Source: an uncultured Pelagibacteraceae bacterium (lineage in GTDB: Bacteria > Pseudomonadota > Alphaproteobacteria > Pelagibacterales > Pelagibacteraceae). Taken from it: a DNA stretch of 64,000 nt. The stretch covers positions 1 to 64,000 of the forward strand of contig CACATS010000003.1 of NCBI GenBank assembly GCA_902535505.1, written 5' to 3'. The position numbers and the translations under genes were made by a program. The stretch's first letter is position 1. Each line of letters starts with the position of its first letter. This document shows, one piece after another, positions 3,134 through 30,404 of the stretch. Below the pieces are notes generated by a model. That model was not told the origin of the DNA. It saw only the letters and a list, made by a program, of their open reading frames with translations, and searched no databases.

Positions 3134-6100
3134 TTAATCAATTTCTTTCCAATATTGGTTCTGAACAGCTCCACCTGTACTAGTTGCCTGAGACTTACCA
3201 GTTATCAGGTTATCAGTTGCAGTAAATCCTGAAATATTATCTTTAGCATTACCTGCAATACCTATGTAAAGGTTATCACCTTGTACAACTACTTTCGATA
3301 ACACTCCAGATCCAAGTTCGATGTTTAAAAGTGAGCTACCGCAGAGGGTATCATAAGCTGTTAAAATAGCCTTTCCAGTAGTGCATGAATTTGCTCCTTT
3401 AGAAGGCTCATAGATTGGAAAATAAACTCTATCTTTATCTACAGTCGGTTCCGCTGTTAATTTTTGTTTATTAACAAGATTGACATACCAGCCAAGTTTA
3501 TCGCTTGGTACAGGGCATTGAGAATTAGTACATTTGGATATATTGCCTACTTGCGATACATTTACAAAATTTGGAAAATCTTTATCTTTAATCCCAAACA
3601 ACCTATTTTGAATTTGATCAGAGTCTTCTCGAAGTTTTTGTGTATTTCCAGTTCCAAAGTATAACCACAAATTATTATCATTATTAATAGTGGCACTCGA
3701 TTTTGTATAAATATATCTTCCATTGCTTGCAGTTGTTTCAGCATCAAATAAAGTGGTTGTACTAATATTTTCTTTAATTGCTAAATAACTTGGGCTACTC
3801 GAATTGAAGTCTATTGAATAATTCTCGGTTAAATTAATTTTTGTAATTTTTCCCTCAAGGTCGTTTGCATAAATTAATGCGCCATTGTAAGTTGCTTTAC
3901 CAGTACCATCAGCAGTTATAACATTTAAATCTGCAGGCAATCCATTTACGACGTCATTACCCAATCTTCTAAACGTAACATTACCAGTATCAGGCTTGGG
4001 CGGGCCTCCATTACGAGTATTTGGCCAAGGCTCATCGAATTCTACATAATCTACACATACTAAGTTCCCAACAGGCTTAAAGGCAATGGTATGTGATACA
4101 GCTGGAGTAAATTCAGCAGTTATAATTTCATTTTTGTTTGGGTCGTAACAAACATTATCATTCCATCCAGGAACTGTCCCAAAATCAGGATCTTTATCAG
4201 TATAACTAACTTGTGAGGATACGGTAAAAAATCTATTTTCTTCATTAGTAGATGGATCTTCTACTAATGTGGTGGTTCTTTTGAATAAAGAACCTGTCCA
4301 ACCATATGCAGATTCTTTTCTATCCTCAATATCTATCACTTTTAATACTCTTCCTTCATTCTCTATATCTACGACAAAAACTGCAGAGCCGATGTCTGGA
4401 TTTACTGTTCCATTATATCCACCACCAAAAACTGCTACCCATTTATCTGTTGGATTATCTTGCCCATCATTTGAACTATCAACTTTGATCCTAATTATTC
4501 GGGGTGTAGACCACGTCTCGCCCAGTTTACGATAATCGAACTCAGGATTAATAGTTCCACTTGAGTAAGAAAAATCATTAATTGAACTATCACTATCCCA
4601 ATGAGTTATAACTTTATTAATAGGATCATTTTTAATTGAAAAAATTTGTCTTGGATCTTCTAAATTTGTTATATCTAAAGCAAAAAACCCGCTACCTCCA
4701 GCACCAAAGCCACTCAATAAAATGGTTCTCCATCTTGGATTATTTATATTGTCATTAGGTGTATCATCAAAAAAGATATCTTTTACTACTGGAGAGCTAT
4801 CTAAACCATAAATTGGGTTAGTCGCGTTTGCCTTTGCAGAGGGAATTCTTGATAAATTTTCCATTATTGCAGGTGGAATAAATCCCCATAGCTCTTCACC
4901 ATTTGCATTATTATCTGTTTTGAATAAATGTAAAATTCCATTATTTGCTCCAGCAATGATCACTTCTTCTCGATTGCTACAATTTACACCGCAATCGTTC
5001 GATGCTTTAAAGTTTTCGTAATTATTTTGAACTCTGTAGTACGCATCGGTTTTATCAAAATTTGATACTGCAGAAACAGCTGTCGAAGCTTCAGGAGGAC
5101 CAACAACAATTAAATTAGAATGATAAATATCAGCTAGTTTATGAATGTTGTCAGAAGTATCGCCGTCACCATCTTGGTCATAAGTATCCACACCTCTGAT
5201 AAAGTTTATTAAATTATCAATTTCAGTGTCACTTGGCGAGGATTGAGGATATATCAAAGCTCTTATCTCATCTCTGTTGGTTGTAGTAAAATTATTTAAA
5301 TTGGAATTTGATAATCCAGCTGTCCAAATCCTTCTCGAAGAAGTTCTATTGTTAAGTGTCTCTGCTGCATCCCATTGCGTAGCACCGAATGTCCCATTTT
5401 CATTGAGCTGATATTTTTTAACACTTCCTTCCCATTGTTTATTACTTGCGTATTCAAAAGTTGCTTGATAAACAAAATCTCCTTTTTGAACATCTGACAT
5501 GACCGCAGGAGTAGTAAAAGTTAATCTGCCCGAGATCGCCTGTTTTATTGCGTCTGTTAAGGTTGCTAAAAGATCAGCTTCATTGTCGGCAAATAAAGGT
5601 GCAGTTGTTCCCCCCGCAACTGCGGTTGAAATATAATTCGATTGACTACCAGTTAATGCAAAACCAACCATAAATGTTTTTACTAATTTACCTTTGTCTT
5701 TGGTTCTTAAACCATTCAATTCATTAATCACTTTATGATTATTATTCCATTGTCCATCACTTATAAAAATAATATAATTTTGAGTACATTCTTGGCCGTA
5801 GTTTGGAGGAATTGGAAATTGTTGCCCACTTCTCATTCTCTGACCAGTCCAATACCTATTTGCCTCAGCAAGTGCATACTCTGGCTCAGTTCCACCAATG
5901 TGTCTTACTCTTCTTACTTGATTAAAAATTTGCCTAGCACCGTTCTCGCTAATGGGTACAATCATATTAGTACGCCTTTTATTATTGGATCCCCATTGCA
6001 TTAAACCAAAATTTGCTCCTGAAGTAAGGTCTGTGTTAGAAACAATTTTCCTTATAACGTCTTTTGCTGCGTCGAGACGTTTCTTAGCTCTACCACCACC

Positions 6101-7060
6101 TATTTGAAATTGTAAAGTCCCGGCATTATTGTATTTAAGAAGTCGATTTCTTCTAAAATCTGCAACATAACTATTATCACTGCTATCTAAATGAACTCCG
6201 TATGGGTAGCTATATCCAGATGCAACTTGACTTAAATATGAAAGACTCGAATTATATTTTCTTAAGCTATGCGTAACTGTTCCAAAAATATTTCCATTAC
6301 TATCGTAATCTGCATCAAAAGATACTCTATCTCTAGGTGAAGAACGCGCGAAACTTAAATTACTTCCAGAGACATTAAACTCTGTAAATCGTCTACCTCC
6401 GTAACGTGAATGTGCATTTGCAACAACTAACTTATTGCCAGCATTGTTCAAAGACATACCAAAACCCCAACTTACTCTAGAAGCACCAAAGCTTTGATAA
6501 CCTAAATCACTAAAATTATTTCTGGCTAACTTTCCAATTAGTCTGGTGTTATTAGAATAGAAAATATAATTATCGTTTACAGCAATACCTTGTGGATATA
6601 AATTGATAGCAACATTTTTGATACAATTTCCCTCAAGATCAAGCACTTTAATTCTTCTATTAAAATAATCTGCTATATAAATTTGATCGTTATAAATAGC
6701 GAACTGCCTTGCACCGTTCCATCTTGTACAATTATTTGGACCACCTACTCCTCCAAAGTCTCTTAGATAATTTCCTGAACTATCAAAAGCTTTCATTCTG
6801 CCGTATCCATATTCCAAGACAAAGATATTTCCTGAGCTGTCGGTTTGGACATCGATTGGGTAGATCAGTCCTGCTTTTACTGGCAATAAATCTCTCATAC
6901 TTCCAGAATTGTCTAACATAATTAGTATATTTGCGGGAATATCTGAGGTTCCTGTCCCAGGAGGTGGATTCTTAGCGTATAGTTTTATATTAAATAATAA
7001 AAAAAATATTATAAAAATTACTGTTGAGATTCTGACCATTCTGCAACTTTCCCTCTCCAA
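3134..7060 (-). CDS. pilY1: PilY1-like T4P tip/assembly protein: VWA MIDAS (DNSGSM), NHL-like repeats, PilY1 C-terminal beta-propeller
   Basis: ILIMLDNSGSM; repeated IDVQTDSSGNIFVLEYGYGRMKAFDSSGNYL units; EVIIAGANNGILHLFKTDN...ELWGFIPPAIMENL typical of PilY1. Confidence 0.9.
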   Translation of the reverse strand: MERESCRMVRISTVIFIIFFLLFNIKLYAKNPPPGTGTSDIPANILIMLDNSGSMRDLLPVKAGLIYPIDVQTDSSGNIFVLEYGYGRMKAFDSSGNYLRDFGGVGGPNNCTRWNGARQFAIYNDQIYIADYFNRRIKVLDLEGNCIKNVAINLYPQGIAVNDNYIFYSNNTRLIGKLARNNFSDLGYQSFGASRVSWGFGMSLNNAGNKLVVANAHSRYGGRRFTEFNVSGSNLSFARSSPRDRVSFDADYDSNGNIFGTVTHSLRKYNSSLSYLSQVASGYSYPYGVHLDSSDNSYVADFRRNRLLKYNNAGTLQFQIGGGRAKKRLDAAKDVIRKIVSNTDLTSGANFGLMQWGSNNKRRTNMIVPISENGARQIFNQVRRVRHIGGTEPEYALAEANRYWTGQRMRSGQQFPIPPNYGQECTQNYIIFISDGQWNNNHKVINELNGLRTKDKGKLVKTFMVGFALTGSQSNYISTAVAGGTTAPLFADNEADLLATLTDAIKQAISGRLTFTTPAVMSDVQKGDFVYQATFEYASNKQWEGSVKKYQLNENGTFGATQWDAAETLNNRTSSRRIWTAGLSNSNLNNFTTTNRDEIRALIYPQSSPSDTEIDNLINFIRGVDTYDQDGDGDTSDNIHKLADIYHSNLIVVGPPEASTAVSAVSNFDKTDAYYRVQNNYENFKASNDCGVNCSNREEVIIAGANNGILHLFKTDNNANGEELWGFIPPAIMENLSRIPSAKANATNPIYGLDSSPVVKDIFFDDTPNDNINNPRWRTILLSGFGAGGSGFFALDITNLEDPRQIFSIKNDPINKVITHWDSDSSINDFSYSSGTINPEFDYRKLGETWSTPRIIRIKVDSSNDGQDNPTDKWVAVFGGGYNGTVNPDIGSAVFVVDIENEGRVLKVIDIEDRKESAYGWTGSLFKRTTTLVEDPSTNEENRFFTVSSQVSYTDKDPDFGTVPGWNDNVCYDPNKNEIITAEFTPAVSHTIAFKPVGNLVCVDYVEFDEPWPNTRNGGPPKPDTGNVTFRRLGNDVVNGLPADLNVITADGTGKATYNGALIYANDLEGKITKINLTENYSIDFNSSSPSYLAIKENISTTTLFDAETTASNGRYIYTKSSATINNDNNLWLYFGTGNTQKLREDSDQIQNRLFGIKDKDFPNFVNVSQVGNISKCTNSQCPVPSDKLGWYVNLVNKQKLTAEPTVDKDRVYFPIYEPSKGANSCTTGKAILTAYDTLCGSSLLNIELGSGVLSKVVVQGDNLYIGIAGNAKDNISGFTATDNLITGKSQATSTGGAVQNQYWKEID

Positions 7061-9300: not shown

Positions 9301-10013
9301 GAAGTATTTTTTTCATTAAACTTCAGAACTTCTACGTCTAAATTTCTATTTATTCTGATTGCATATAAATATTCTAATTTTTTGTTTGGACTTTGGACCC
9401 AGTGACATCTATTACTACCCGATCTATCTGTGTTTTTATTTGAACATAATAAAAAAAGTGCTTTCCCACTCAATCCAGGAAAAGTTTCACCTCCATTACC
9501 GTACGGAGTAAAAAAAGCGTTTTTTGATAAGCAAACGTGTACATTGGGCGACCAATTAAGATCTGATGGCCAATTAAATGCATCCGAGGTATCTTTAGAC
9601 ATTCTCATCTTATCCTCTAGTATAAAACCATTAAATGAACCTGGGCATAATCTATCGCTAGTTCCATCGCTATAAGTTTTTGGAGTGTTCAGAAAACTTT
9701 TAGGAGCCGAATTAGAATGATGGGTTCTACTATCTGCAGGGACTCTCATGTGTTCTGACCATTCCTCTTGAGTCATCGTCCATAAAGCTGGATTCGGAAC
9801 AAAATGAACAATAGCAAAAGGATATTTTCCTGAATTAACATTATCTCTTATTTTTTCTAAGTATTCTTTAACCTCAAATGCATTTTTTTTAGCCTCTCTC
9901 TCTGTTACCCAGTCGTCTACTTTTGGATAACCAAATACCGCCAAAATGGCAAAGATTGCTATAACAACTAATAATTCTATAATTGAAAATGCTTTATTGT
10001 TTCGCATCAACAT
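9282..10013 (-). CDS. fimT: FimT/GspH-like minor pilin
   Basis: Prepilin N-terminus KAFSIIELLVVIAIFAILAVFGYPKVDDWV; operon position after pilT. Confidence 0.78.
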   Translation of the reverse strand: MLMRNNKAFSIIELLVVIAIFAILAVFGYPKVDDWVTEREAKKNAFEVKEYLEKIRDNVNSGKYPFAIVHFVPNPALWTMTQEEWSEHMRVPADSRTHHSNSAPKSFLNTPKTYSDGTSDRLCPGSFNGFILEDKMRMSKDTSDAFNWPSDLNWSPNVHVCLSKNAFFTPYGNGGETFPGLSGKALFLLCSNKNTDRSGSNRCHWVQSPNKKLEYLYAIRINRNLDVEVLKFNEKNTSWIVQN

Positions 10014-11004
10014 TACTTATTTTCCCTGATTGCACTAAGTTTTCAATTGATTTTTCCATAGAGATCATTCCATCACGTGTTCCTGTTTGCATAACACTTG
10101 GTATTTGATGGATTTTTTTCTCACGAATTAAATTTTTAACTGGAGAATTACAAACCATTATCTCGAAAGCTCCAACTCTTCCTTTACCATCAGCTGTTTT
10201 AAATAATTTTTGTGTAATTACCATTCTTAAAGAGTCTGCAAGCTGAGCCTGGATCTGAGCCTGCTGCTCAGACGGGAATACGTCTATAATTCTGTTGATT
10301 GTATTAGGTGCACCACTAGTGTGCAAAGTACCAAAAACTAAATGACCTGTTTCTGCAGCTGTTAAAGCCATACTTATAGTTTCAATATCTCTAAGCTCTC
10401 CAACTAAAATAACATCTGGATCTTCTCTTAATGCACTTTTTAAAGCTGTAGAAAAACTCTCCGTCTGTTTACCAACTTCTCTGTGAGAGATTATACTTTT
10501 TTTATCTTTATGAATAAACTCAACTGGATCTTCAATTGTAATAATGTTTGCTTGTCTCGTTTCATTTATTTGATTTATAATCGATGCAAGAGTTGTGGAT
10601 TTACCTGAGCCAGTAGGACCAGTAACTAGTACTAAGCCTTTATGCATGTCTACAATACTGTACATTACTGGAGGCAAATTAAGGCTTTCCATATTTAGAA
10701 TAGTTGTTTCTACTTTACGTAAAACTACTGCAGGCCCTTGTAGCGTTTGATAAAAATTTGCTCTAAACCTCATATTTTCCAGCATAAAACCACTATCTAA
10801 CTCGTTTTTTTGCTTAAAATGCTCAACATCAGATTTGGAGCAGTTTTTCTCTAAAAGGTTTATGATATCCTCATTTTTAACCACTTCTCCCTCTAAAATG
10901 ACTATTTCTCCCATTAATCTGTAAGAAAAAGGGCAATTCGCTCTCAAATGGAAGTCAGACACTTTAGGGTTGTCTTTTACGACATTTACGATTTTACCAA
11001 TCAT
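9994..11004 (-). CDS. pilT: Type IV pilus retraction ATPase PilT
   Basis: Walker A GPTGSGKST, EDPVEFIH, REDPDVILVGELRD, GHLVFGTLHTSGA, AQLADSLR motifs. Confidence 0.95.
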   Translation of the reverse strand: MIGKIVNVVKDNPKVSDFHLRANCPFSYRLMGEIVILEGEVVKNEDIINLLEKNCSKSDVEHFKQKNELDSGFMLENMRFRANFYQTLQGPAVVLRKVETTILNMESLNLPPVMYSIVDMHKGLVLVTGPTGSGKSTTLASIINQINETRQANIITIEDPVEFIHKDKKSIISHREVGKQTESFSTALKSALREDPDVILVGELRDIETISMALTAAETGHLVFGTLHTSGAPNTINRIIDVFPSEQQAQIQAQLADSLRMVITQKLFKTADGKGRVGAFEIMVCNSPVKNLIREKKIHQIPSVMQTGTRDGMISMEKSIENLVQSGKISNVDAKQ

Positions 11005-11064: not shown

Positions 11065-11387
11065 TTGTGTTAGACTAATTCAATTTAATTATTCTAACAC
11101 AAAATTTATAAACTATTTGACAAATTTTATCAATATTAAAAAAATGTTGATTTTATTGACTTTTTTGGAGATACTATTTTTAAATATACAAATATAAAAT
11201 CTTAAAATCTATCTAACACAAAAAATATATTCTCTAACACAATATTTTTACGTTCTAACACAAAATAATATCAAATTCTTATATCTATAACACAAAATAA
11301 ACTATTATTATTTGCAGATTCTAGAGCTTATATTTTTATAACACAAAATAATTGACAAAATTGTGTTAGAATTGTATTATAACACAA
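11065..11387. repeat. Cluster of nine TAACACAA repeats (extended form about TCTAACACAAAAT) between divergent pilT and pilM/N operons
   Basis: Core 8-mer on + at 11095, 11214, 11235, 11256, 11288, 11339, 11380 and on - (TTGTGTTA) at 11065 and 11361, read directly from sequence. Confidence 0.93.
11352..11380 (+). promoter_or_regulatory. Near-consensus sigma70-type promoter for the pilM/N operon with repeat copies in the spacer and over the -10
   Basis: TTGACA (11352-11357), 17-bp spacer, TATTAT (11375-11380); AAGGAG RBS at 11393-11398 and ATG at 11409. Confidence 0.75.
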
Positions 11388-11408
11388 AATTTAAGGAGTG
11401 ATTCGTAA

Positions 11409-13520
11409 ATGTCAAATATAATTTCAACTAAAGATGGAAGATTACATATTTACGTAAGACAGGATAAATACAAAGGTAAGTTGAAATCTGAGAACTGGGT
11501 AGGCAGAACCTTCTATAAAGGTAAACAAAAAGTTGTATCTTCAGGCACCACAGACTTAGAAGAAGCAAAAAAAATTTTAGAGCAATGGTATGACGATTTA
11601 ATTTCAGGAAAATTAGATAACAATAGTGACAATGATTCAAATAATAATATTAACATTGACCAAAACCAAAATGTTGAAACTTCAAAAACTACCGAACAAG
11701 TTTCAGAAATTAAACCAGAAATAACAAAAGAAAATCAATTACAAAACAACACCAGTTCTACAATTCCAGAAGAAAAGAAGAAAAAATTATTCAATTTTGA
11801 TTTATCCTCATTAAAAAATTTATCATCTTTAAAAGACAAATTATCTTTTAAAAAAGATAATTTAGAAAATAAAAATAATCAAAAAGATAAAAACAATTTA
11901 TCAAAATTTAAAAAATTATTTTCAGAGAAAATCAGTAAAGCGAATGTTGCAGGAGAGGAAATAGCTGGAATAGATATAGGAGAGGACTCTATAAAGATTG
12001 CTCAGCTAAGCAAAAAAGAGAATGATTGGATATTAGAAAAAATTTCTTTGCGATTACTTGATAAAAACAAAACTGCAGATGGCGTAATTAACGCTAAAGA
12101 CTATGTATCTGAAGAATTGAAATTAGGAATGGCAAACGCAAAAGTTTCAACGACTAATGTTGCTATTTCAATACCAGTGACAAGCGCAATTATAAGAGTA
12201 GTAACTAGCCCTTTAATGTCTGACGATGAACTTCAAAAAGCTATAGAAACAGACTCTCTTTGGGAAAATTTAGTACAACTTACAGATGACTTAAACGAAT
12301 ATTCTATATTCCATCAAGTAATTAGCAGAAATAACAAAACAAACACTATGGAAATACTTTTCGTAGCTTCAAAACTTAGTGATGTAAATGCCTATTCCTC
12401 AATTGTAAAAAAAGCTGGCTTAAATCCAGTTATATTGGACGTTAAATGCTTCACTTTAAAAAACGCTTTTGATAATTCATTTAAAATTGAAAATAAAGCC
12501 AACAATGCTCTTTTAGAAATAGGATCTGAAGATAATTATTTAATTATCGTTCATGATAATATTCCAATCATTACAGATATATTTTTAAGACCAAACGAGA
12601 AGGATCTTCTAGGCCAGTTCGACGGAAATATTCAAAATACAGACACTGATAGTGTTGTTAGGAGATATTGCATGCAGCTTAAGCAAGCGTTAAGTGATTA
12701 TGAAAGTAAATACTCATCAAAAATTAACAATATAAAGATTGTAAGCTCTCTTGCAAATATCGAAGAACTAATTCCTTTATTTAAAAAAAACTTATTAAAT
12801 ACTGGCCTTCAAGTTTTTGATCCCTTAAATGAATTACAAATACCAGCTTACAATCAAGAAAAAACTAATTTAAGAAATAGATCGATTTATACCTCCGTTC
12901 TTGGCTTAGCATATAGAAAATTAGACGTGTTCGGATATTATAAATTTGTAACTGCAGTTAAGAATATAAACCTTTTGCCTAATCGAGAAGCGCTAAAGAG
13001 ACAAAGTAAATTAAAATTCCTTTCAGGGTTTGCAATGAAAGGGTTAGTAGGTGGTATTGCTGCACTATACTTGTTCCTAATTGGATTTTCCTTTTTTCAA
13101 ATTAGTTCCAATAAAGGCAAACTTGCTAGTGAAAGCAATATAGAACAAGAATTTAATCTTGTAAGCGCTGAGCATAAAAAACTAACAAAGACAGTCAACG
13201 ACATGAAAAAGGCACTTAAACTTGGTAATATGGTAAACTCTAATCAAACTGCATCATACAGAGCGCTTGCACAAATCACAAGAAGTGTTCCTCAAAGAGT
13301 TCAATTTACTGATCTTAATTATAACGGGAACAATCAGGTAATCATTACTGGTTTAGCCTTTTCTGACCAAGATATTATTAATTTCATAGCAAATTTAAAT
13401 GGCAAAGATTTAATCGATCAAGCCTCTCTAAAAGCAATGAATGTACCAAAGGGTAAAAATGATTTACAGTCAGCAAATAACAAAAAAGGATTTACAATTT
13501 TATGTAAATTAAAAATATGA
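11409..13520 (+). CDS. pilMN: PilM-PilN fusion protein with extra N-terminal integrase-Arm/AP2-like putative DNA-binding domain
   Basis: aa 1-66 GRLHIYVRQDKYKGKLKSENWVGRTFYKGKQKVVSSGTTDLEEAKKILEQWYDDL; K/N-rich linker; PilM actin-like GIDIGEDSIKIAQL; PilN NINLLPNREALKRQ followed by a TM segment. Confidence 0.85.
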   Translation: MSNIISTKDGRLHIYVRQDKYKGKLKSENWVGRTFYKGKQKVVSSGTTDLEEAKKILEQWYDDLISGKLDNNSDNDSNNNINIDQNQNVETSKTTEQVSEIKPEITKENQLQNNTSSTIPEEKKKKLFNFDLSSLKNLSSLKDKLSFKKDNLENKNNQKDKNNLSKFKKLFSEKISKANVAGEEIAGIDIGEDSIKIAQLSKKENDWILEKISLRLLDKNKTADGVINAKDYVSEELKLGMANAKVSTTNVAISIPVTSAIIRVVTSPLMSDDELQKAIETDSLWENLVQLTDDLNEYSIFHQVISRNNKTNTMEILFVASKLSDVNAYSSIVKKAGLNPVILDVKCFTLKNAFDNSFKIENKANNALLEIGSEDNYLIIVHDNIPIITDIFLRPNEKDLLGQFDGNIQNTDTDSVVRRYCMQLKQALSDYESKYSSKINNIKIVSSLANIEELIPLFKKNLLNTGLQVFDPLNELQIPAYNQEKTNLRNRSIYTSVLGLAYRKLDVFGYYKFVTAVKNINLLPNREALKRQSKLKFLSGFAMKGLVGGIAALYLFLIGFSFFQISSNKGKLASESNIEQEFNLVSAEHKKLTKTVNDMKKALKLGNMVNSNQTASYRALAQITRSVPQRVQFTDLNYNGNNQVIITGLAFSDQDIINFIANLNGKDLIDQASLKAMNVPKGKNDLQSANNKKGFTILCKLKI

Positions 13521-14155
13521 ATTTAAGTGAAATAAAAAATATAGATCTCAAAAATATTGATGTTAAAGATTTAATTGAAAAATTAAAAAATAACGAACTT
13601 TTAAAAGATAAAAAATTCTTAACAAAATTTGGAATTTATTTCGGTTCAATAATGTTATTCTTTATTATTTACTACGCTTTTGTTAATCCAAAGGTGGAAG
13701 CCCAAAAACAAAGAATTAATATTATGTTACAAAACGAACAACAAACTGCTGGTTTTAAACAAGAAATTATAGGATTAAAAGCTACTATAGAAAAACTCCA
13801 ACCTGAATATGATAAGAAAAGTAAATTATTTCACAGTCAAAAAGAAGTTGAAGGTCTTTACCAAAATATAAGTGATTTTGCTTCGATGAATAGTTTAAAT
13901 ATTATAAACCTTAATAAAGAGAACCCAGTCCCAGTTTCTCCAGGAAAAAATGCAAAAAAAGTAGCTTATTTTAAAATACCAGTATCGTACGAAATTACTG
14001 GAAATTATCTTGGATATTTAAAATTCAGAAGAGCACTAGCAAAATCAAATAAAGTTATCAATTTTGATAGGGAGCAGATAACAGTTGTTGAGGGTGCTGG
14101 AATTAAATCAGTAGGAACATTATCAATTGTAGGATTACCAGATGAATATAAGTAA
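13517..14155 (+). CDS. pilO: Type IV pilus inner-membrane alignment protein PilO
   Basis: Single N-terminal TM plus coiled coil and PilO-like domain; position between pilN and pilP. Confidence 0.85.
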   Translation: MNLSEIKNIDLKNIDVKDLIEKLKNNELLKDKKFLTKFGIYFGSIMLFFIIYYAFVNPKVEAQKQRINIMLQNEQQTAGFKQEIIGLKATIEKLQPEYDKKSKLFHSQKEVEGLYQNISDFASMNSLNIINLNKENPVPVSPGKNAKKVAYFKIPVSYEITGNYLGYLKFRRALAKSNKVINFDREQITVVEGAGIKSVGTLSIVGLPDEYK

Positions 14156-14558
14156 AAAAATTTTATTCGTTATATTTTCATTATTACTTTTCACAAATCC
14201 AATCTTTGCTGAAGATAAAAAAGATCTTGTAGATGAGGAACTTCCTGCAATTAATCCGTTTCTTGGCGGTGGATCAGCTGGCGGTTCTAGTGGAGACGGT
14301 TTAGGCCCAGACGGGGTATCTCAATCCAATTCTGTATCTCTTAAGAATATGAAATTAAACGGCGTAGTAATTGGAGAAAGCAAAAGATTTGCGATTTTTA
14401 GTTTTCCAGATGGAAGAACTGTAAGATACGGGGAAGATACAATAATATCAAACAATCTTATGATTTTAGATATATTTCCGGACCGTATATTTATCAAGAT
14501 GAATGAAGTAGAATATTCTCTTGATCTAAAAAATAATCTTGTAAAGGCTGAAGGATGA
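14142..14558 (+). CDS. pilP: PilP-like periplasmic pilus assembly protein
   Basis: Signal peptide, INPF motif, LKNMKLNGVVIGESKRFAIFSFPDGRTVRYGED HR-like domain; between pilO and pilQ. Confidence 0.78.
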   Translation: MNISKKILFVIFSLLLFTNPIFAEDKKDLVDEELPAINPFLGGGSAGGSSGDGLGPDGVSQSNSVSLKNMKLNGVVIGESKRFAIFSFPDGRTVRYGEDTIISNNLMILDIFPDRIFIKMNEVEYSLDLKNNLVKAEG

Positions 14559-16108
14559 CATTAAAATTAGTAAAAATAATATCATTATTAATAATTTTGG
14601 CATTAACTTCTAACTGCGCTTCTACAAAGAAAAAATCAGTTCACGGTGAGGAACCTTTAATTGATCCATCAGAAATTGTTGTTGAAGGAACTAAGGAGAT
14701 GCAAGAGAAAGTAAAATATGGTCCAAAGCCTTATGAAACTGAGTTTGATCCCACAGCTAACAAAAGAAAAACAATTACAACTGAACAAGTAAGAAACTAC
14801 GTAACAATCTCTAATGAATATGAAAACTTAAAACAAACTGTAAGCTTTAATTTTAATGGAGTCGACTTTAGAGACGCAATGGACTCTCTTGCCGACATAG
14901 GTGGTATTAATATAATAGTAGGCGAAGAAGTTAGCGGTACAGTCACTGCAAAACTTCAAGATGTTGGCTGGGATGTGGCCTTTCAAACTCTTTTAGATAT
15001 GAAAACTCTAGGGGCAGATATTGATGTAGCCAGAGGTATTATTCGTGTACATACTCCTGAAAAGTTGACTGCACAAGAAACTCTAAAATCTGCAAGGGCA
15101 GAAGTGCTTAAAAAGAAAATTCAATTAGAGGATACCGTTGAACCAATCTTAGCTGATATTTTTAGATTATATTACATAAGCCCATCAGAGGCTAAGACAA
15201 CCTTGGAAAATCTTTTTAAATCTCAAGGACCAGAGGGAACTAGCACCTTAAGTTCAATACAAATTACTGAAGAAAGTATGACAAGATCAATAATTGTAAG
15301 AGGAAGAAAGCCTGATCTAGATGTTATTGATGCAGTCTTAAAAGAAATCGATATCAAAACGCAGCAAGTATTAATTGAGGCATTTATAGTAACTGCTACT
15401 TCAGATTTTCAAAAAGCTTTAGGCTCAAGAATAGGTGCAATGACTGAAAAAGGAACCTCTGGAGAAAAAGGATCAGAAATTATTTCAGGTACAATTGGTG
15501 GGCCTGTAACAACTAATGCAGGTATTTCATTAGGAGCCGCAGCTGGTACTGTTACAAATAATTCTATTACTGCAGCAACTAGTGGTATAGGAATTATTAA
15601 AACATTAGGAACAGCTGCATTAAAACTCGAAATTGAAGCATTACAATCTCTTGGAAAAACTAAAATTATTTCAAGTCCAAGTGTTTTTACACTAAACAAC
15701 CAAGAAGCTAAGATAACTCAGGGAACGCAAATAGCCTATACTGTTACAGCTGATGGTACTACGTCTACAGAATTTAAAGATGCTGCTTTATCTTTAACAG
15801 CAACTCCAAGCATAATTGGTGATGGAAATGTTTTACTTGATATTTTGGTCAATAACGACACTCCAGTCGAAGTACCAGGATCTGATGAGCCAGGAATTAC
15901 AAAAAGAGAGATAGATACTAAACTATTAGTTAGTGACGGTGATATTGTGGTTATTGGCGGGATAAAGGTTAATACTGATACAAGCACAAATTCAAAAACA
16001 CCAGGATTAGGAAATGTTCCAGTAGTAGGAAACTTGTTTAAAGGAAGAAGCAGCCAGAATAAGTTAGAGGAAATGTTAATATTCCTAGCTCCACGTGTTA
16101 TAAATTAA
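14555..16108 (+). CDS. pilQ: Type IV pilus secretin PilQ (lipoprotein signal)
   Basis: Lipobox-like LTSNCAS; FRDAMDSLADIGGINIIVGEEVSGTVTAKLQDV secretin N-domain; GGIKVNTDTSTNSKTPGLGNVPVVGNLFKGRSS..EEMLIFLAPRVI. Confidence 0.93.
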   Translation: MTLKLVKIISLLIILALTSNCASTKKKSVHGEEPLIDPSEIVVEGTKEMQEKVKYGPKPYETEFDPTANKRKTITTEQVRNYVTISNEYENLKQTVSFNFNGVDFRDAMDSLADIGGINIIVGEEVSGTVTAKLQDVGWDVAFQTLLDMKTLGADIDVARGIIRVHTPEKLTAQETLKSARAEVLKKKIQLEDTVEPILADIFRLYYISPSEAKTTLENLFKSQGPEGTSTLSSIQITEESMTRSIIVRGRKPDLDVIDAVLKEIDIKTQQVLIEAFIVTATSDFQKALGSRIGAMTEKGTSGEKGSEIISGTIGGPVTTNAGISLGAAAGTVTNNSITAATSGIGIIKTLGTAALKLEIEALQSLGKTKIISSPSVFTLNNQEAKITQGTQIAYTVTADGTTSTEFKDAALSLTATPSIIGDGNVLLDILVNNDTPVEVPGSDEPGITKREIDTKLLVSDGDIVVIGGIKVNTDTSTNSKTPGLGNVPVVGNLFKGRSSQNKLEEMLIFLAPRVIN

Positions 16109-16110
16109 AC

Positions 16111-17829
16111 ATGATTAGATTAGATACAACAAGCGAACAAAGTATTCTTAATATGCTTAGAGAGCATAACGCTCTAAATGGCCAGCAAATAAAACAAATT
16201 GAAAGTTTGAGCAAAGAGTCGGGAAAGTCTCAAATAGAAACTGCTTTTGAATTGAATATCACAAATGATACAAAAGTAGCTGAACTTTTATCAGAAAGTT
16301 TTTCAATTCCATTAATCAAACTTGATGATGTCAAAGTAGACAATAATTTAAAAAAATTTACTGAAATTAGATTCTTAAAAGAAAATTTGATTATACCTTT
16401 TGCAGTTGAGTCTAAAATAATAAAAGTTGCTATAGCTGATGCATCAAAGTTTGGTTTGATTAAAAATATCGAAAGTTTAACAAAATTAGAGCCAGAACTT
16501 TATGCTGCATCTATAAAACAAATTTCAGATTTTATAGCAAGACTTGAGCAAGGCGCACCTGTCAAAGCTAAAAATCAAAAAATAGAACAAGTTAAAAAGA
16601 AACAAGCTAATGTACCTCTAGAAGTTGAGTCTGAAGTTATAGCTTTTGTAGATAAAATTTTAAATGAAGCTATTAGACTAGAAACTAGTGATATTCATAT
16701 TGAACCTTTTAAAGATAGTGCGCATGTACGATTTAGGATTGATGGTGTTCTAAGAGTTATGGATCAGTTCAGCGATTTTTTAAACAAAGACCCTTTGAAT
16801 TATAATTCAGTAGTCACAAGAGTTAAAATTCTTAGCAAATTAGATATTGCTGAGAGAAGAATTCCTCAAGATGGAGGTTCCACTTTTAAATATGGAGACA
16901 AAGAAATGGATCTTCGTATATCAATAATGCCAACTAAAAATAATGAGAGAATTGTTATGCGTCTTTTAAATAAGGAAGCAGGTGACAAATCTTTAGACAA
17001 ACTTGGATTTGCAGATCAAGATTTAAAAATGTTAAACGAGGCTATTCATTCTCCTCAAGGAATGGTGCTTGTTACCGGACCCACTGGAAGTGGAAAAACT
17101 ACTACACTTTATAGTATTTTAAAAACTATAAACAAACCCTCAATGAATATTCTTACTGCAGAAGATCCAGTGGAATATGAACTTGAAGGTGTTGGTCAAG
17201 TACAGGTAAGAGATGACATTGGTTATTCTTTCGAAACAGCACTGAGATCATTTTTACGACAAGACCCTGAAGTTATTTTAGTTGGTGAGATAAGAGATAA
17301 AGCTACTGTTGATATTGCTTTAAAGGCAGCACTAACAGGTCACCTAGTCTTTAGCACACTTCACACTAATGACGCTCCAAGTACAATAACAAGGCTACAG
17401 AATATGGGAACACCAGATTATTTAATTTCTGCCGCCTGCACACTAGTTATGGCTCAAAGACTTGCTAGAAAAACTTGCCAAGAATGTAGGGTACCTGATG
17501 AAAGATTAAATCCAAAAGCACTCTCTCAAATTGGATTTACAGTTGAAGAAGCCTCAAGAGTAAGACCAGTTTACGGTAAAGGCTGTAAAGCTTGCGCAAG
17601 TGGAGACTCTGGAGTTGGAAATGGCTATAAAGGTCGTATGGGTATCTATGAGATTTTAAAAGTTACAAAAAATATTAAAGACGCCATACTTCGAAAAGCA
17701 ACAACACTAGAATTGAAAGAAGTAGCTAAAAGGGATAACTTTCGAACCATGCAAGATATGGGAAGAGAATTAATTTTAACTGGTGATTTATCTTTTAGCG
17801 AATATCAAAGAATTCTTAGTCTAGATTAA
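16111..17829 (+). CDS. pilB: Type IV pilus extension ATPase PilB
   Basis: GPTGSGKTTTLYSIL, AEDPVEYELEGVGQVQV, LRQDPEVILVGEIRD, tetracysteine zinc motif CQECR..CKACA. Confidence 0.95.
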   Translation: MIRLDTTSEQSILNMLREHNALNGQQIKQIESLSKESGKSQIETAFELNITNDTKVAELLSESFSIPLIKLDDVKVDNNLKKFTEIRFLKENLIIPFAVESKIIKVAIADASKFGLIKNIESLTKLEPELYAASIKQISDFIARLEQGAPVKAKNQKIEQVKKKQANVPLEVESEVIAFVDKILNEAIRLETSDIHIEPFKDSAHVRFRIDGVLRVMDQFSDFLNKDPLNYNSVVTRVKILSKLDIAERRIPQDGGSTFKYGDKEMDLRISIMPTKNNERIVMRLLNKEAGDKSLDKLGFADQDLKMLNEAIHSPQGMVLVTGPTGSGKTTTLYSILKTINKPSMNILTAEDPVEYELEGVGQVQVRDDIGYSFETALRSFLRQDPEVILVGEIRDKATVDIALKAALTGHLVFSTLHTNDAPSTITRLQNMGTPDYLISAACTLVMAQRLARKTCQECRVPDERLNPKALSQIGFTVEEASRVRPVYGKGCKACASGDSGVGNGYKGRMGIYEILKVTKNIKDAILRKATTLELKEVAKRDNFRTMQDMGRELILTGDLSFSEYQRILSLD

Positions 17830-17830
17830 T

Positions 17831-19066
17831 ATGCTTAATTTTCAATACAAAGGAATTTCACAAGGAAAATATGTTGAGGGCGAAATAGAAGCTATTAATA
17901 ATTCGGAAGCAGCATTTAAGTTAAAAGAGCAGAAAGTCATCATTACTAAGCTTATTGAAGCAAAAAAAAAGAAAGTTGAAAAAGCAAAGAAAAAATCAGC
18001 TGGTTTTAGTTTTAGCAAAGGAGTAAAGGCAAGAGATATATTAATTTTTTCCAAACAATTTTCAACGATGTTAAAATCAGGCTTACCAGTTTTAAATGCC
18101 CTAAATCTTCTTATTGAGCAAACGACTAATCCAAACATGAAAACAATCATAGAAAAGATAAAAAAAGATTTGGAGGCTGGTAATGCACTATCTAAATGTT
18201 TTGAAAACCATCCTAAGACGTTTGACACCGTTACAGTTAATTTAATAAAAGCTGGTGAGGCAAGTGGAAAATTAGATATATTCTTAGAAAGAATAGTAAT
18301 GTCTCTTGAAAAAAGAGAAAAAATAAAGTCACAAATTAAAAGTGCACTATTCTATCCCGCAGTACTTTTCACAGTAGCAGTAAGTGTTACAATTTTTATG
18401 TTAATTAAAGTCGTGCCTATTTTTACTGAAATGTATGACGGTATGGGTGTACCTATACCTGGACCAACTGCTGCAATTATGGGCGCAAGTAAATTTCTAA
18501 GTGGAGCTGGTGGAATTACATCATTAATCCTAATTATTGCATTTATTACACTATTTAGGTTTGCTCTAAAAAAAAGCTATGTATTTAAAAAAAAATGGCA
18601 TGCTTTTGTTTTTACAATACCTATATTTGGAGCAATTATTAAAAAATCTTTATTAGCGAGAATATCTTTAGTTATGGGAAACTTAAACCAAGCAGGGGTT
18701 GATATATTAGAAAGTTTAGATATAGCTAAATCAGTAAGCACAAACACAGTCGTTACCGAAGCTTTAGAAAATATTAAGAAAGGAGTATTCTCAGGTGAAA
18801 CACTCACTGCACTTTTTGCAAAAGAAACAAAAATATTTCCACCAACTTTTAGCCAATTAATTTCAGTTGGAGAACAAACAGGAAGCTTGGATGCTATGTT
18901 CGCTTCAGTGGCGCAATATTATGAGGAAGAATTCGATGAAGCAGTTAAAAACTTATCAAGTTTAATTGAGCCCATTATGATCGTGTTCATGGGAATTACT
19001 ATTGGAGGATTAATGTTAGCTTTATACTCTCCAATTTTCAATGTTGGAGCAATAATTGGTAATTAG
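17831..19066 (+). CDS. pilC: Type IV pilus platform protein PilC
   Basis: T2SSF domains: FSKQFSTMLKSGLPVLNALNLL; LARISLVMGNLNQAGVDILESLDI; GEQTGSLDAMF. Confidence 0.94.
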   Translation: MLNFQYKGISQGKYVEGEIEAINNSEAAFKLKEQKVIITKLIEAKKKKVEKAKKKSAGFSFSKGVKARDILIFSKQFSTMLKSGLPVLNALNLLIEQTTNPNMKTIIEKIKKDLEAGNALSKCFENHPKTFDTVTVNLIKAGEASGKLDIFLERIVMSLEKREKIKSQIKSALFYPAVLFTVAVSVTIFMLIKVVPIFTEMYDGMGVPIPGPTAAIMGASKFLSGAGGITSLILIIAFITLFRFALKKSYVFKKKWHAFVFTIPIFGAIIKKSLLARISLVMGNLNQAGVDILESLDIAKSVSTNTVVTEALENIKKGVFSGETLTALFAKETKIFPPTFSQLISVGEQTGSLDAMFASVAQYYEEEFDEAVKNLSSLIEPIMIVFMGITIGGLMLALYSPIFNVGAIIGN

Positions 19067-21798: not shown

Positions 21799-24060
21799 AT
21801 GATTAAGTTTTTATTAAATTTTATTTTTATTTTTTTTTATTTTTTAAACGTTCACGCTCAAAACGTTTATCCTGAATATGCTGATAAACTTACATTTCTT
21901 CGAGCTGATCAAGGCGTTAATTATCCAGATATTTCTGATATAGCATTCAATGCTGATGGAACAAGAATTTTTGTTGGTCATCACCTAACACATAATACTA
22001 CGCACATATTTCAGTATGATCTGGGAACTGCCTGGGATATATCTACATTAGATATATCAAGTTTAGTCACAGCAAATCTTAAAGAAGATAATCATGCCGC
22101 AGTGAATCCTGCAAATAATACTAAATTAACTATAGATTTTAATGATGATGGAACAAAAATATTTATTCTAGGAAGTTTTGCTGCAACGACGCATATTTAT
22201 AATTTGACTACTGCTTACGATATCTCAAGTATCGGAGCAGCAACATATGTTGCTGACGATGGAATTGATTGGAGAAATTATTTAGTTCCTGGGGAGGCCG
22301 CAACACATCAAAATGATATAGAATTAAGCCACGATGGGACTAGAATGTTTTTACTTGATGGAGCTACAAATGATTCTAAAGTTGTTGAGTATCAATTAAG
22401 CACTCCTTTTGATCAAAGTACAGCATCATATAACGGCAAGTTAGAAATTGAAGATTTAATGACATCCTCTAATTTTTTCGCAGCAATGACAGTTGAATTT
22501 GATGATGATGGAACAAGAATGTACGTCGGAGAAGCGAGTAACTCATCAAATTTTAATTATATTTATGTATGGAAACTTTCTACTCCTTATTCAGTGACAT
22601 CCGCTACCTATGCTGGAAAATGGCAAATTGATTTTAGAGGTGTATCAGACTCACAAGGAGCCAATTACGCATTCCAATTTGGAAAGCAAGGTATGAAACT
22701 TTATGTTACATCCAACGAATATACTAAAGAAGATAATACAAACACAATTTATGATGATGTTATATTTGAATATGATTTGATCTGTCCTTATGGAATAGTA
22801 GTTTGCGAATTAGATGAAACAAATGTTCAAACAGATACTGCGGTACAAATAGAATTTGCAAAAAATGTTATTAAACACAACACTTCTACAATTTTTAGAA
22901 GATTCGACTGGCTCAGAAGAAATGAAAATAATTTAAATTTATACACTCAAGATATTAAATTTAACTTTAGCCCAATTATGGGATTTTTACCTGATGAAAT
23001 TGAAAAACCCTTAACTAAAAATTTGATTACTAAAGTAAGCTCCATTAAAAAAGACCCCAATAAAAATAGCAAAAAGATTAAAAAATGGTCATTCTGGTCT
23101 CACGGAGATGTCACATTTGGAGAAAGAGATAATTTAAATTTAAATCCGAGGGAATTTCAAACAAGCGGTTTAACATTTGGTGGAGATCGAAAAATAAACG
23201 ACCACTTCTTTGGCTTTGCTTTAAGATATGGTAACGAAGATATTGATATTTTAAAAACTAATTCAAACAAATTTGAAACTGAGTCTCTTTCATTAAATTT
23301 ATATAATTCATTAAAGATTAACGATAATCTTAATTTAAATTCTCTTTTAGGGTCAAGTGTTTTAGATATTGATAAATTTGAATCAAACGCAATAACCGGA
23401 CATAGAAACGGAAAACAAATTTATTCTGCAATAAGTCTCCAAGCAAGTAGTGGTTTTACAGATTTTAATTTTATGCCTACGGGTAAAATTGAATTTGGTA
23501 TTACAGAGCTATCAGAGTATAATCAATTTAATACTTCAAATAATCTTTTAGCAAATCATGATCTTTTAACTTTTGAAACAGGGTTATTAACAACAGGATT
23601 GAAATTTGATAATCTTAAAGACATTACCAACGGAAAAAGAAGTATTAATGGCAGTTTTGAATATGTTCAGGACTTTTCTTCTGATATAAATTATGAATTT
23701 TTAAACTCTGGTGACACTGTTTATCAAACTAAAACCTACGGTGGTAATTCGATACATAATTTAAAAAGCAATATTGGTTTTGAGAGGATATTAAATAGTG
23801 GCTTTACTTTTGGGTTTAACTACGAAAATTTTCAAGGTTTAGATGAGAATAGTGTTAACGAAGATAGTCTTTACTTAAAACTAAGTCATGTTCGAGATGA
23901 TTATAAGAAAACTAATTTAGATTTCGATCCCATCAATGACAATCTAGCTTTAAAATATAATCTTAATCTAAGTGGATTTGATTTTTCATTAAACTCTAAT
24001 CATAGTGTAAAAAATCAAGAACTTTTTGACGCTATGTTTAAATTTTCAAATAAATTTTAG
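21799..24060 (+). CDS. Secreted beta-propeller-like repeat protein with autotransporter-like C-terminal barrel
   Basis: Signal peptide; repeats FNDDGTKIFILG..., YQLSTPFDQSTASYNG; C-terminal beta-rich domain ending FKFSNKF; paralog of ORF at 25830. Confidence 0.72.
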   Translation: MIKFLLNFIFIFFYFLNVHAQNVYPEYADKLTFLRADQGVNYPDISDIAFNADGTRIFVGHHLTHNTTHIFQYDLGTAWDISTLDISSLVTANLKEDNHAAVNPANNTKLTIDFNDDGTKIFILGSFAATTHIYNLTTAYDISSIGAATYVADDGIDWRNYLVPGEAATHQNDIELSHDGTRMFLLDGATNDSKVVEYQLSTPFDQSTASYNGKLEIEDLMTSSNFFAAMTVEFDDDGTRMYVGEASNSSNFNYIYVWKLSTPYSVTSATYAGKWQIDFRGVSDSQGANYAFQFGKQGMKLYVTSNEYTKEDNTNTIYDDVIFEYDLICPYGIVVCELDETNVQTDTAVQIEFAKNVIKHNTSTIFRRFDWLRRNENNLNLYTQDIKFNFSPIMGFLPDEIEKPLTKNLITKVSSIKKDPNKNSKKIKKWSFWSHGDVTFGERDNLNLNPREFQTSGLTFGGDRKINDHFFGFALRYGNEDIDILKTNSNKFETESLSLNLYNSLKINDNLNLNSLLGSSVLDIDKFESNAITGHRNGKQIYSAISLQASSGFTDFNFMPTGKIEFGITELSEYNQFNTSNNLLANHDLLTFETGLLTTGLKFDNLKDITNGKRSINGSFEYVQDFSSDINYEFLNSGDTVYQTKTYGGNSIHNLKSNIGFERILNSGFTFGFNYENFQGLDENSVNEDSLYLKLSHVRDDYKKTNLDFDPINDNLALKYNLNLSGFDFSLNSNHSVKNQELFDAMFKFSNKF

Positions 24061-28205: not shown

Positions 28206-30404
28206 ATGAAAATTATTTTATCAGTTGCTATTATATTCATTATTTCAATTAAGAATGCTAATGCTAACTGTGATGTTACCTATTCCTCAGATACTGCAAT
28301 ATCTAACACAATTGAATGTGCTGATAATCAGACTATGACAGTTAACGAGGGTGTAACCTTAAGCCAAGCTTCAGGAGCATCTGGCATGATCAATATAGTT
28401 GGAGAAGAAAATTTTACTTTAGTAAATAATGGTACAATAGATCCTGGACAAAGTAATGCTTGGCAAGCAATTTATTTAAAAGATGCAACAAGCTTTGAAA
28501 TTACCAATAACGGTACAATTAATGGACCTGGTCAAATGATAGAATTTATTGGAAATAAGGGAACTTCAACTATTACAAATACTGGTACAATTTCAACAAC
28601 CTCACATGCACCGATTACTAATTATGGATTAGGCTTTACTGGAAGTCTAACTATTAATAATAGTGGAACTATAAGCGCTTATGGAGTTCTTTCGAGTGAT
28701 CAAACAAGTCATAACCCAACTCATCAAGGGGCGATAAGTCTTGGACAATGTTCTTCAACAAGCAGAAATGATTCATGTTCAGATGAGTCCGATGCTGGAT
28801 CAGCTGGTGGATATACTATTATTAACTCAGGAACAATTGAAGTTACTGATAAAGGAGCTAATGCCATTAGATTAAATAACAAAGTAAACAATACAATCAC
28901 TAATACAGGATCAATATTAGGTGGACCTGAACAAGCTTTTAGCGTAGCAGGCTCTGGTAGCTCGTTTAGGATTGGTATGGATATTATGGTTGTTGAATGT
29001 CATGAAACTGACGACAGCAATGATCCATTTGGTGCTTGTGGACCTTCAGGTAGTGGAACAACAACCGTTAACATTGGTAAAGATGCTACATTTAAAAATG
29101 GTATAGATTTTAACTCTACGACAAGTGAAATTGTTATTAGAAGCGATGTTAATAGAGATTACGAGTTAAGAATATTCGATTATTCTGATGGAGCTGGAGG
29201 TAGTGATAAGATCACCATTACAAACAATTCTGAGCATGAAGTTACTTTTAAAAGACAACAAACCCTAACTTTTTCAGATGGAAGTACTAATAGTTGGGGG
29301 AGTATTACACCAGGTAGACAGGCAAAGACTTCAGGAAACTACACATACCAACATACGGGCCAAGGTGATGAAGGATTGAATGTAAGTGGTGAATATTTTA
29401 ATGCTGGAGATGATGGAATTTTGATTATTAAAGGTGAAAGACTTGAAGTAAATCAAAATAATCAAAAATATCGAGCAGAAAATACACTAAGTAAATTTAG
29501 AAATTTCTATAATGCTACACATCATCTTGGATACAACATACAAAGATGTTCAACTTTAGATGAGGAAAATAGAATAGACTTACTTCTATCGATGAGCACT
29601 GAGGATTTAAGTGACTGCAATACTGATTTTTTAAGAGTATTTAATAGTTTTCAGGATAGAAAAGACGTTTACGATGGTCGTAATTATGGAGGAATTGGTA
29701 TGAATACTCCAATTTTCTGGAGTGATAAAGCGGCAAGTAATACTTTTTTTGGGTTTTCAAGACAAGAAAGTAATTTTAATGACAAAACAAGCTCTGAAAG
29801 TGACAATTTTACATTTGGAATTAAGAATTTTTATCAAGATGACGGATTCGAAGCATCTTTAACGCCTTTAGTTGGGTTAAGTTTTCAAAAAAACAGAGAT
29901 TTTGATACTGATAAAAGCGAGACAAAAAGTGAATCTTTCATAAGTCAATTTGCAGGAATAAATGGTAAAATTTCCAGTAATTTTGAGCAAGATCCACACA
30001 ATTTTTTTACACTAGGTGTTGAAGGCTCATATAATATTCAAAGATTTCCAGAATATGTATCTCAATTTACTGATGGAGAATTAAAAGTTAAAGAAAGTTA
30101 TGATCAATTACTAAGCGGTACTATTGAAGCATCTTTCACAAATTTACCAAAAAATGATAGAACAAATAAGTTTTATATCGGGGGAAGCAGTTTCAAGAAT
30201 TATAATAATAAAATTGGTGTTTTAGCAAGAGGCTTCAATTCTGACGTGAAAAACAATGGAAATAAAACCTGGTCAGGTTATCACGGAGGAGTTTCTTTTT
30301 TAAAAAAAAGCAAGGATTATAATTATGAGCTAGACCTTAGATATGAAGATCAGGAGGGTTTAATAGACAAAATAGCAAGTATTACAGTGAACAAAAGATT
30401 TTAA
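28206..30404 (+). CDS. Autotransporter-like adhesin with repetitive passenger and C-terminal barrel
   Basis: Signal peptide; repeated NNGTI/NTGTI/NSGTI motifs (beta-helix-like passenger); C-terminal beta-strand region ending ASITVNKRF. Confidence 0.8.
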   Translation: MKIILSVAIIFIISIKNANANCDVTYSSDTAISNTIECADNQTMTVNEGVTLSQASGASGMINIVGEENFTLVNNGTIDPGQSNAWQAIYLKDATSFEITNNGTINGPGQMIEFIGNKGTSTITNTGTISTTSHAPITNYGLGFTGSLTINNSGTISAYGVLSSDQTSHNPTHQGAISLGQCSSTSRNDSCSDESDAGSAGGYTIINSGTIEVTDKGANAIRLNNKVNNTITNTGSILGGPEQAFSVAGSGSSFRIGMDIMVVECHETDDSNDPFGACGPSGSGTTTVNIGKDATFKNGIDFNSTTSEIVIRSDVNRDYELRIFDYSDGAGGSDKITITNNSEHEVTFKRQQTLTFSDGSTNSWGSITPGRQAKTSGNYTYQHTGQGDEGLNVSGEYFNAGDDGILIIKGERLEVNQNNQKYRAENTLSKFRNFYNATHHLGYNIQRCSTLDEENRIDLLLSMSTEDLSDCNTDFLRVFNSFQDRKDVYDGRNYGGIGMNTPIFWSDKAASNTFFGFSRQESNFNDKTSSESDNFTFGIKNFYQDDGFEASLTPLVGLSFQKNRDFDTDKSETKSESFISQFAGINGKISSNFEQDPHNFFTLGVEGSYNIQRFPEYVSQFTDGELKVKESYDQLLSGTIEASFTNLPKNDRTNKFYIGGSSFKNYNNKIGVLARGFNSDVKNNGNKTWSGYHGGVSFLKKSKDYNYELDLRYEDQEGLIDKIASITVNKRF

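Follow-up and report, generated by a model that had tools for sequence, protein, structure and literature searches.

A putative integrase arm-type domain on a SAR11 PilM–PilN fusion, and a matching repeat array at its own promoter

Membrane-bound regulators, integrase arm domains, integrase autorepression, and PilM–PilN fusions are all known. Tyrosine recombinases of the lambda Int and Tn916 Int type carry an AP2-like arm domain with three strands and a helix, for which short direct repeats are the presumed sites. In KplE1, the gene for the integrase IntS is repressed through arm sites that overlap its own promoter (PMC2951348). ToxR, CadC, and TcpP (surveyed in PMC10269533) each have a DNA-binding domain and one transmembrane (TM) segment on the same polypeptide. 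GspL of type II secretion, which corresponds to PilM plus PilN (PMC4471445), joins a PilM-like to a PilN-like part, as do SAR11 and Amuc_1101-type PilM–PilN fusions. ParMRC (R1 parC) has a short-repeat array at the promoter of its own operon and an actin-like partner, and the split parC array binds both ParR and the actin-like ParM.

The gene described here, pilMN, lies in a window of 64,000 nucleotides (the whole stretch of DNA analysed) from an uncultured member of the Pelagibacteraceae, a SAR11 family; its features are listed in Table 1. SAR11 bacteria rank with the ocean's most abundant cell groups and have few regulators. The N-terminal domain (NTD) of the encoded protein, PilMN, is homologous to the N-termini of SAR11 tyrosine recombinases, is predicted to have three strands and a helix, and likewise has short direct repeats as its presumed sites. 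PilMN differs from tyrosine recombinases in lacking core-binding and catalytic domains and a Pfam arm match, and in having the NTD fused to pilus proteins. As with IntS, the gene for the putative arm-binding domain has arm-type sites lying across its promoter, but what is presumably controlled here is a pilus operon of the chromosome, and the protein belongs to a membrane machine. PilMN resembles ToxR, CadC, and TcpP in pairing a predicted DNA-binding domain with one TM segment, whereas its remaining parts form a structural component of the pilus and not a dedicated sensor; the main text of the transmembrane regulator survey mentions neither PilM nor integrase (PMC10269533). GspL and the NTD-less fusions have no DNA-binding domain, and those examined in SAR11 also have no site array. 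Like ParMRC, pilMN has a short-repeat array at the operon's own promoter and an actin-like component, but it has no ParR, no ribbon-helix-helix protein, and no plasmid, and its putative DNA-binding domain lies in cis with PilM, in the membrane. We considered and rejected ParMRC membership: in the AlphaFold model the NTD is not ribbon-helix-helix, and the actin-like domain is PilM.

The first-pass annotation, made from the sequence alone, had read pilMN as a single open reading frame (ORF) encoding the NTD, a linker, PilM, and PilN with its TM segment. The ORF, Pfam, hydropathy, and AlphaFold all bear this out. AAGGAG (11393–11398) stands ahead of the ATG at 11409. Pfam matches to PilM_2 (aa 187–385, E = 1.1e-23) and PilN (aa 620–700, E = 2.5e-9) are each above the cut-off. 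In the AlphaFold model, the NTD is folded, the linker (aa 71–182) has low confidence, the PilM part is actin-like, with PilM structures as its best PDB matches (Foldseek), and the end is PilN-like. Hydropathy gives only one strong TM segment (about aa 545–567), and one polypeptide thus unites it with the recombinase-homologous NTD. The INLLP peptide is invariant in the alignment. The features of type IVa pilus PilM and PilN are all present, namely both domains, INLLP, one TM segment, and the pilMNOPQ gene order. pilMN is the first gene of a pilM/N-O-P-Q-B-C operon, in which PilO and Secretin exceed the Pfam cut-off, PilP is weak, and PilB and PilC were named by sequence and order. The annotation also noted that PilM and PilN are normally separate proteins. 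What is unusual here is the NTD and not the joining of PilM to PilN, as two SAR11 loci of another family (L009, L010) have the fusion without the NTD.

Table 1. Features of the pilMN locus, in window coordinates (aa, amino acids of PilMN).
Feature	Position	Strand	Details or support
Divergent pilT-like ATPase gene, first of a pilin-like/PilY1-like operon	9994..11004	-	T2SSE
Site TCTAACACAA, closest to pilT	11065..11074	-	
Site TCTAACACAA	11093..11102	+	
Site TCTAACACAA	11212..11221	+	
Site TCTAACACAA	11233..11242	+	21 bp on from the 11212 site
Site TCTAACACAA	11254..11263	+	21 bp on from the 11233 site
Site TATAACACAA	11286..11295	+	
Site TATAACACAA	11337..11346	+	
Predicted pilMN promoter (TTGACA, 17 bp, TATTAT)	11352..11380	+	sigma-70, 11/12 matches; conserved in relatives
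Site TCTAACACAA, within promoter spacer	11361..11370	-	
Site TATAACACAA, over -10 and probable transcription start	11378..11387	+	
pilMN fusion gene with N-terminal integrase-type domain	11409..13520	+	703 aa, ATG; Pfam, AlphaFold
NTD, predicted arm-type DNA-binding domain (aa 1–66)	11409..11606	+	recombinase homology, AlphaFold, dN/dS
K/N/S-rich flexible linker (aa 67–182)	11607..11954	+	pLDDT <50 at aa 71–182; dN/dS 0.47
PilM actin-like domain (aa 183–504)	11955..12920	+	PilM_2; Foldseek to 5eou, 2ych, 3jc8
INLLP, PilM-docking peptide of PilN, here in cis (aa 520–524)	12966..12980	+	
One TM segment (about aa 545–567)	13041..13109	+	hydropathy; predicted helix 546–572
PilN periplasmic domain and coiled coil	13131..13517	+	Pfam PilN aa 620–700
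pilO, pilP, pilQ, pilB, pilC, downstream of pilMN	13517..19066	+	Pfam, sequence, gene order

Two further proteins near these genes were read from sequence. A 1308-aa PilY1-like protein (3134–7060, minus strand) has, by eye, propeller-like repeats followed by a von Willebrand-type region, and a secreted propeller and autotransporter-like protein (21799–24060, plus strand) adjoins the pilus genes. A SAR11 adhesin has been reported always to lie beside type IV pilus or type II secretion genes (PMC12636525).

The likeness of the N-terminus to integrase arm domains, proposed in the first-pass annotation, is supported by homology, with the same domain heading full tyrosine recombinases. Over 66 aa, the NTD is 57 per cent identical to the start of a full tyrosine recombinase of 418 aa from G043, a genome of the window's own genus (Phage_integrase E = 6.2e-6, at 26.5 bits against a Pfam cut-off of 27.1). 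Homologous NTDs head related tyrosine recombinases in two more genomes, G184 and G301. A profile search of 290 genomes of the class returned two long-ORF matches outside SAR11 (G556, E = 1.6e-4; G595, E = 0.006), and these, the two best outside SAR11, are again tyrosine recombinase N-termini. The distant integrases with NTD homology are at L205 and L207. By sequence, the NTD alone had no match in Pfam, NCBIfam, PHROGs, or PDB, and no curated Pfam arm family matched PilMN or its integrase relatives. The recombinase catalytic domain that the annotation had found missing is indeed absent (no Pfam Phage_integrase match in PilMN); judged by its domains, PilMN is not a recombinase.

The AlphaFold model of the NTD (thirty-nine relatives; mean pLDDT 82.5) has three main strands and a helix, with strands at residues 5–7, 12–16, 30–36, and 39–44 and the helix at 50–66. 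The three-strand-plus-helix look noted earlier is found in the model. Foldseek with a 77-aa NTD model did not confirm the fold, giving no significant PDB or viral-structure match; the weak viral matches include integrases and homing endonucleases. Because of this, the case for the NTD rests on recombinase homology and not on structure. Lack of a nucleic-acid-binding fold had been named in advance as counting against DNA binding; the Foldseek caveat stands, and we hold that the homology and the site evidence below outweigh it. NTD identity is about 60–99 per cent across Pelagibacteraceae pilMN, and median dN/dS among eleven close loci is 0.039 for the NTD, 0.038 for PilM, 0.066 for PilN, and 0.47 for the linker. 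From these comparisons the NTD is clearly a real domain, under what is by dN/dS strong purifying selection. It very likely binds DNA in a sequence-specific manner.

As the first-pass annotation had suggested, we surveyed SAR11 PilM homologs for the NTD and found it in many. In the PilM–PilN tree, the NTD-bearing proteins make up two large groups (clade A, which includes the window, and clade B). Proteins without the NTD come from the order's other family, two distant members of the family, and one seventeen-member group of the main genus; L001, L149, and L156, which are marked ‘no’ in the tree, represent cut or truncated sequences. Two gains of the NTD would explain this pattern as well as a single gain with a single loss, and the NTD tree fits a single origin in pilMN. 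In the history that we propose, a tyrosine recombinase would have supplied an ancestral Pelagibacteraceae pilMN with its arm-binding N-terminal domain. In the second clade, up to about 150 acidic low-complexity residues precede the NTD, as in the pilMN of G156 (L193:3228–5771), where the stretch has an internal direct repeat. Between the window gene (11409–13517) and L020, dS is about 0.85 in the NTD and PilN and 0.15 in PilM, a contrast that suggests recombination tracts within pilMN.

The 404-bp intergenic region between pilT and pilMN holds nine TMTAACACAA sites, helically phased. Conserved copies of TCTAACACAA surfaced when we aligned the pilT/pilMN intergenic regions of ten relatives. The word TAACACAA occurs ten times in the window, with nine copies in 11065–11387, and thirty-three times in the whole 773-kb assembly, where this is the only cluster. 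All seven copies of TCTAACACAA in the complete genome G250 lie upstream of pilMN, as do six of nine in G156. A regulon search found no second site cluster in G000, G156, or G250. The sole other exact copy of TCTAACACAA in the window (28301–28311) is isolated and probably due to chance. Spacing between same-strand sites has a best period of 10.65 bp (R = 0.65 over fifty-one distinct arrangements, against a null maximum of 0.11), which would place these sites on one face of the DNA, and it is kept across relatives while the intervening DNA diverges.

Presence of the array tracks presence of the NTD. All seventy-three usable, distinct upstream regions of NTD-bearing pilMN have four to nine exact copies of TAACACAA (mean 7.4), compared with none in any of the twenty-one regions upstream of NTD-less pilMN; L084, L099, and L124 were left out of the seventy-three for wrong start codons or cut contigs. 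The motif was first seen in clade A and then upheld in clade B, where the upstream neighbours differ and include, as named from sequence, a PilY1-like gene, a SpoIIE-type phosphatase, and a transporter. G401 has two pilus loci (L178 and L179), where one pilMN lacks the NTD and the other bears it, and the array is found at the NTD-bearing locus only. Among whole genomes, a phased pair (TAACACAA-N11-16-TAACACAA) is present in 67/70 NTD carriers and 3/328 others (Fisher P = 2.5e-68, a value that ignores kinship among phylogenetically correlated genome counts). Three carriers have no such pair, namely G301, which has the NTD in an integrase only, G311, where a contig end cuts the domain, and G395, whose locus stops 28 bp past the NTD match. 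These comparisons rest throughout on sequence, from related genomes that include many single-cell assemblies.

The pilMN motif recurs, with one base in eleven changed, in elements that carry the NTD-bearing integrases. In G184, G301, and G043, the recombinase gene lies in an element of about 5.0–5.1 kb within tRNA-Leu, which is split at the anticodon loop. Each element (L187, L188, and L186, respectively) brings a tyrosine recombinase and its own tRNA-Leu gene, and the L187 element also encodes a serine recombinase (Resolvase, E = 3e-22). When the 19-kb loci were scanned with a weight matrix built from pilMN sites alone, CTCTTACACAA beside int was among the top matches, and repeats of the CTCTTACACAA type occur at both ends of two of the three elements (L187 and L188). 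In G184, ACTCTTACACTACTCTTACACAA stands at both element ends and adjoins both att cores. In G301 the two ends carry pairs of the GTCTTACACAA type, and the end repeats of G043 are more diverged (CTCTTACATCA, CTCTAACATCA). We presume that these end repeats are the arm-type sites of the NTD-bearing integrases. The pilMN motif CTCTAACACAA is one base off the element repeats, so that nearly identical DNA words go with two kinds of protein whose only common part is the NTD. The repeats of the three SAR11 integrases do not count as separate cases, since these proteins share ancestry.

The first-pass annotation mentioned the 11065–11387 DNA only in passing, as a possible target of the NTD. Comparative genomics supports such an action, both through a phased array of a 10–11 bp motif that follows the NTD in presence and absence and through the near-identity of that motif to the presumed arm-type sites of the integrase elements. 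Of the evidence assembled here, this stretch is the strongest.

Two of the sites fall on the best pilMN promoter, where one fills the spacer and the other covers the -10 and the probable start. The promoter scan also gives matches, though weaker ones, in shuffled sequence, and no promoter of the divergent pilT gene could be named with confidence. A -10 right before a site was found in only 22/73 NTD-bearing regions; the overlap is clear in the window's clade, and the sign of any regulation appears less clear in the second clade. Arm-site repression of integrase genes is known, and the pilus operon may have inherited the control logic together with the domain. In such a scheme, the NTD would still recognise the arm-type repeat of the recombinase in its present form, CTCTAACACAA, and four to nine sites, mostly on one helix face, would have built up as an array in the pilMN promoter region. 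PilMN would sit in the inner membrane with its NTD and PilM in the cytoplasm, and the NTD would bind the array on a flexible tether of about 110 residues. Where a site covers part of the -35/-10/+1 region, its occupation should shut out RNA polymerase, and PilMN would thereby repress its own pilMNOPQBC operon; the divergent pilT operon would probably also be repressed where it is adjacent. With the NTD tethered to a single-pass membrane protein, the promoter would have to come to the membrane, as it does for other membrane-bound regulators (PMC10269533). Since a row of near-copies of the integrase sites stands upstream of pilMN, direct control of this gene by the pilus machine is very probable. 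We consider it likely that the captured arm domain makes PilMN a membrane-anchored regulator of its own promoter, most likely a repressor, and autorepression taken by itself is nearly as likely.

Models of the type IVa pilus machine contain twelve PilM and twelve PilN (3jc8 and 3jc9, twenty-four chains in two entries). Rings of about twelve would let an assembled machine present many NTDs and grip the phased array far more tightly than single molecules do, so that finished machines could shut off further synthesis. That PilMN senses the assembly state of the pilus in this way is a conjecture somewhat more doubtful than its opposite. More tentative still is the idea that the ring counts itself, with about twelve tethered NTDs gripping the array only once assembled and holding the gene at the membrane, switched off.

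The main rival to autorepression is a docking or partition-like role in which PilMN, by way of the array, would fasten the chromosome or the pil locus to the pilus machine, with repression secondary or absent. There is a single site cluster per genome, four to nine phased repeats exceed what a plain operator needs, PilMN is membrane-anchored with an actin-like PilM domain, and the R1 parC repeats, split around the par promoter, repress that promoter (PMC5016525). Against these points, PilM is FtsA/PilM-like and polymerisation on DNA is not known for it, the window's sites sit on pilMN's own promoter, and one entire clade of SAR11 pilMN loci has neither the NTD nor the array. We regard docking as unlikely. 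Slightly less probable is activation or fine-tuning of the promoters, in place of repression, by an array-bound NTD, as seven of the nine sites lie upstream of the -35 and known membrane-bound regulators such as CadC activate; two sites, however, overlap the spacer and the -10/+1 of the best promoter, and several clade B loci have tandem sites after a -10-like hexamer.

Far less probable than either is that some other regulator owns the repeats, with the NTD serving PilMN as a protein–protein module; the NTD model has no significant structural match, but the array tracks the NTD locus by locus, even inside one genome, and the ends of the NTD-bearing integrase elements have a nearly identical repeat. 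Least probable of all, an integrated element would have left the array behind as an att-like recombination hot spot, and the NTD would be a remnant of its integrase, an idea that fits the integrase origin of the NTD and the likeness of the repeats to arm sites but not the lack of a catalytic domain, core site, or element at the pilMN locus, the strong purifying selection on the NTD over two deep clades, or the kept site spacing amid diverging DNA; no element junction or integration at the array was seen in the NTD-bearing loci surveyed.

In the literature that we searched, we found no paper on a PilMN–NTD fusion or on the regulation of SAR11 pilMN. What is new relative to that literature is a structural pilus protein with an apparently captured integrase domain and a matching array at its own promoter. 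If a structural pilus part does double as a site-specific DNA-binding protein, it would be a new kind of coupling between a surface machine and the gene that encodes it. It would also plainly show a host taking over a mobile-element domain along with its target sequence. A machine-counting switch, if real, would be new in category, a chromosome-tethered nanomachine with built-in copy-number control. One small soluble domain and a DNA of 400 bp would suffice for a direct test based on the predicted motif, and the CTCTAACACAA array offers a sequence tag for finding such systems.

We also looked for the NTD in viruses. A viral scan with a single NTD sequence gave no match, and comparison of a phage GenBank collection with the NTD, its phage version, and the full integrase gave no meaningful match. 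Scans with NTD profiles returned six or five loci, of which L105 was rejected as a false match. In marine phage contigs from IMG/VR (L100:4974–5324, L103:4977–5327, and also L101, L102, and L104), a protein of about 116 aa consists of the NTD and a C-terminal TM segment. These contigs have no site cluster, with counts at the level of the reversed control. A phage-borne, membrane-anchored NTD might act on the host array, and these proteins raise the question of why some marine phages bear the same NTD on a membrane anchor. In the NTD tree, the phage domain groups with the SAR11 integrases.
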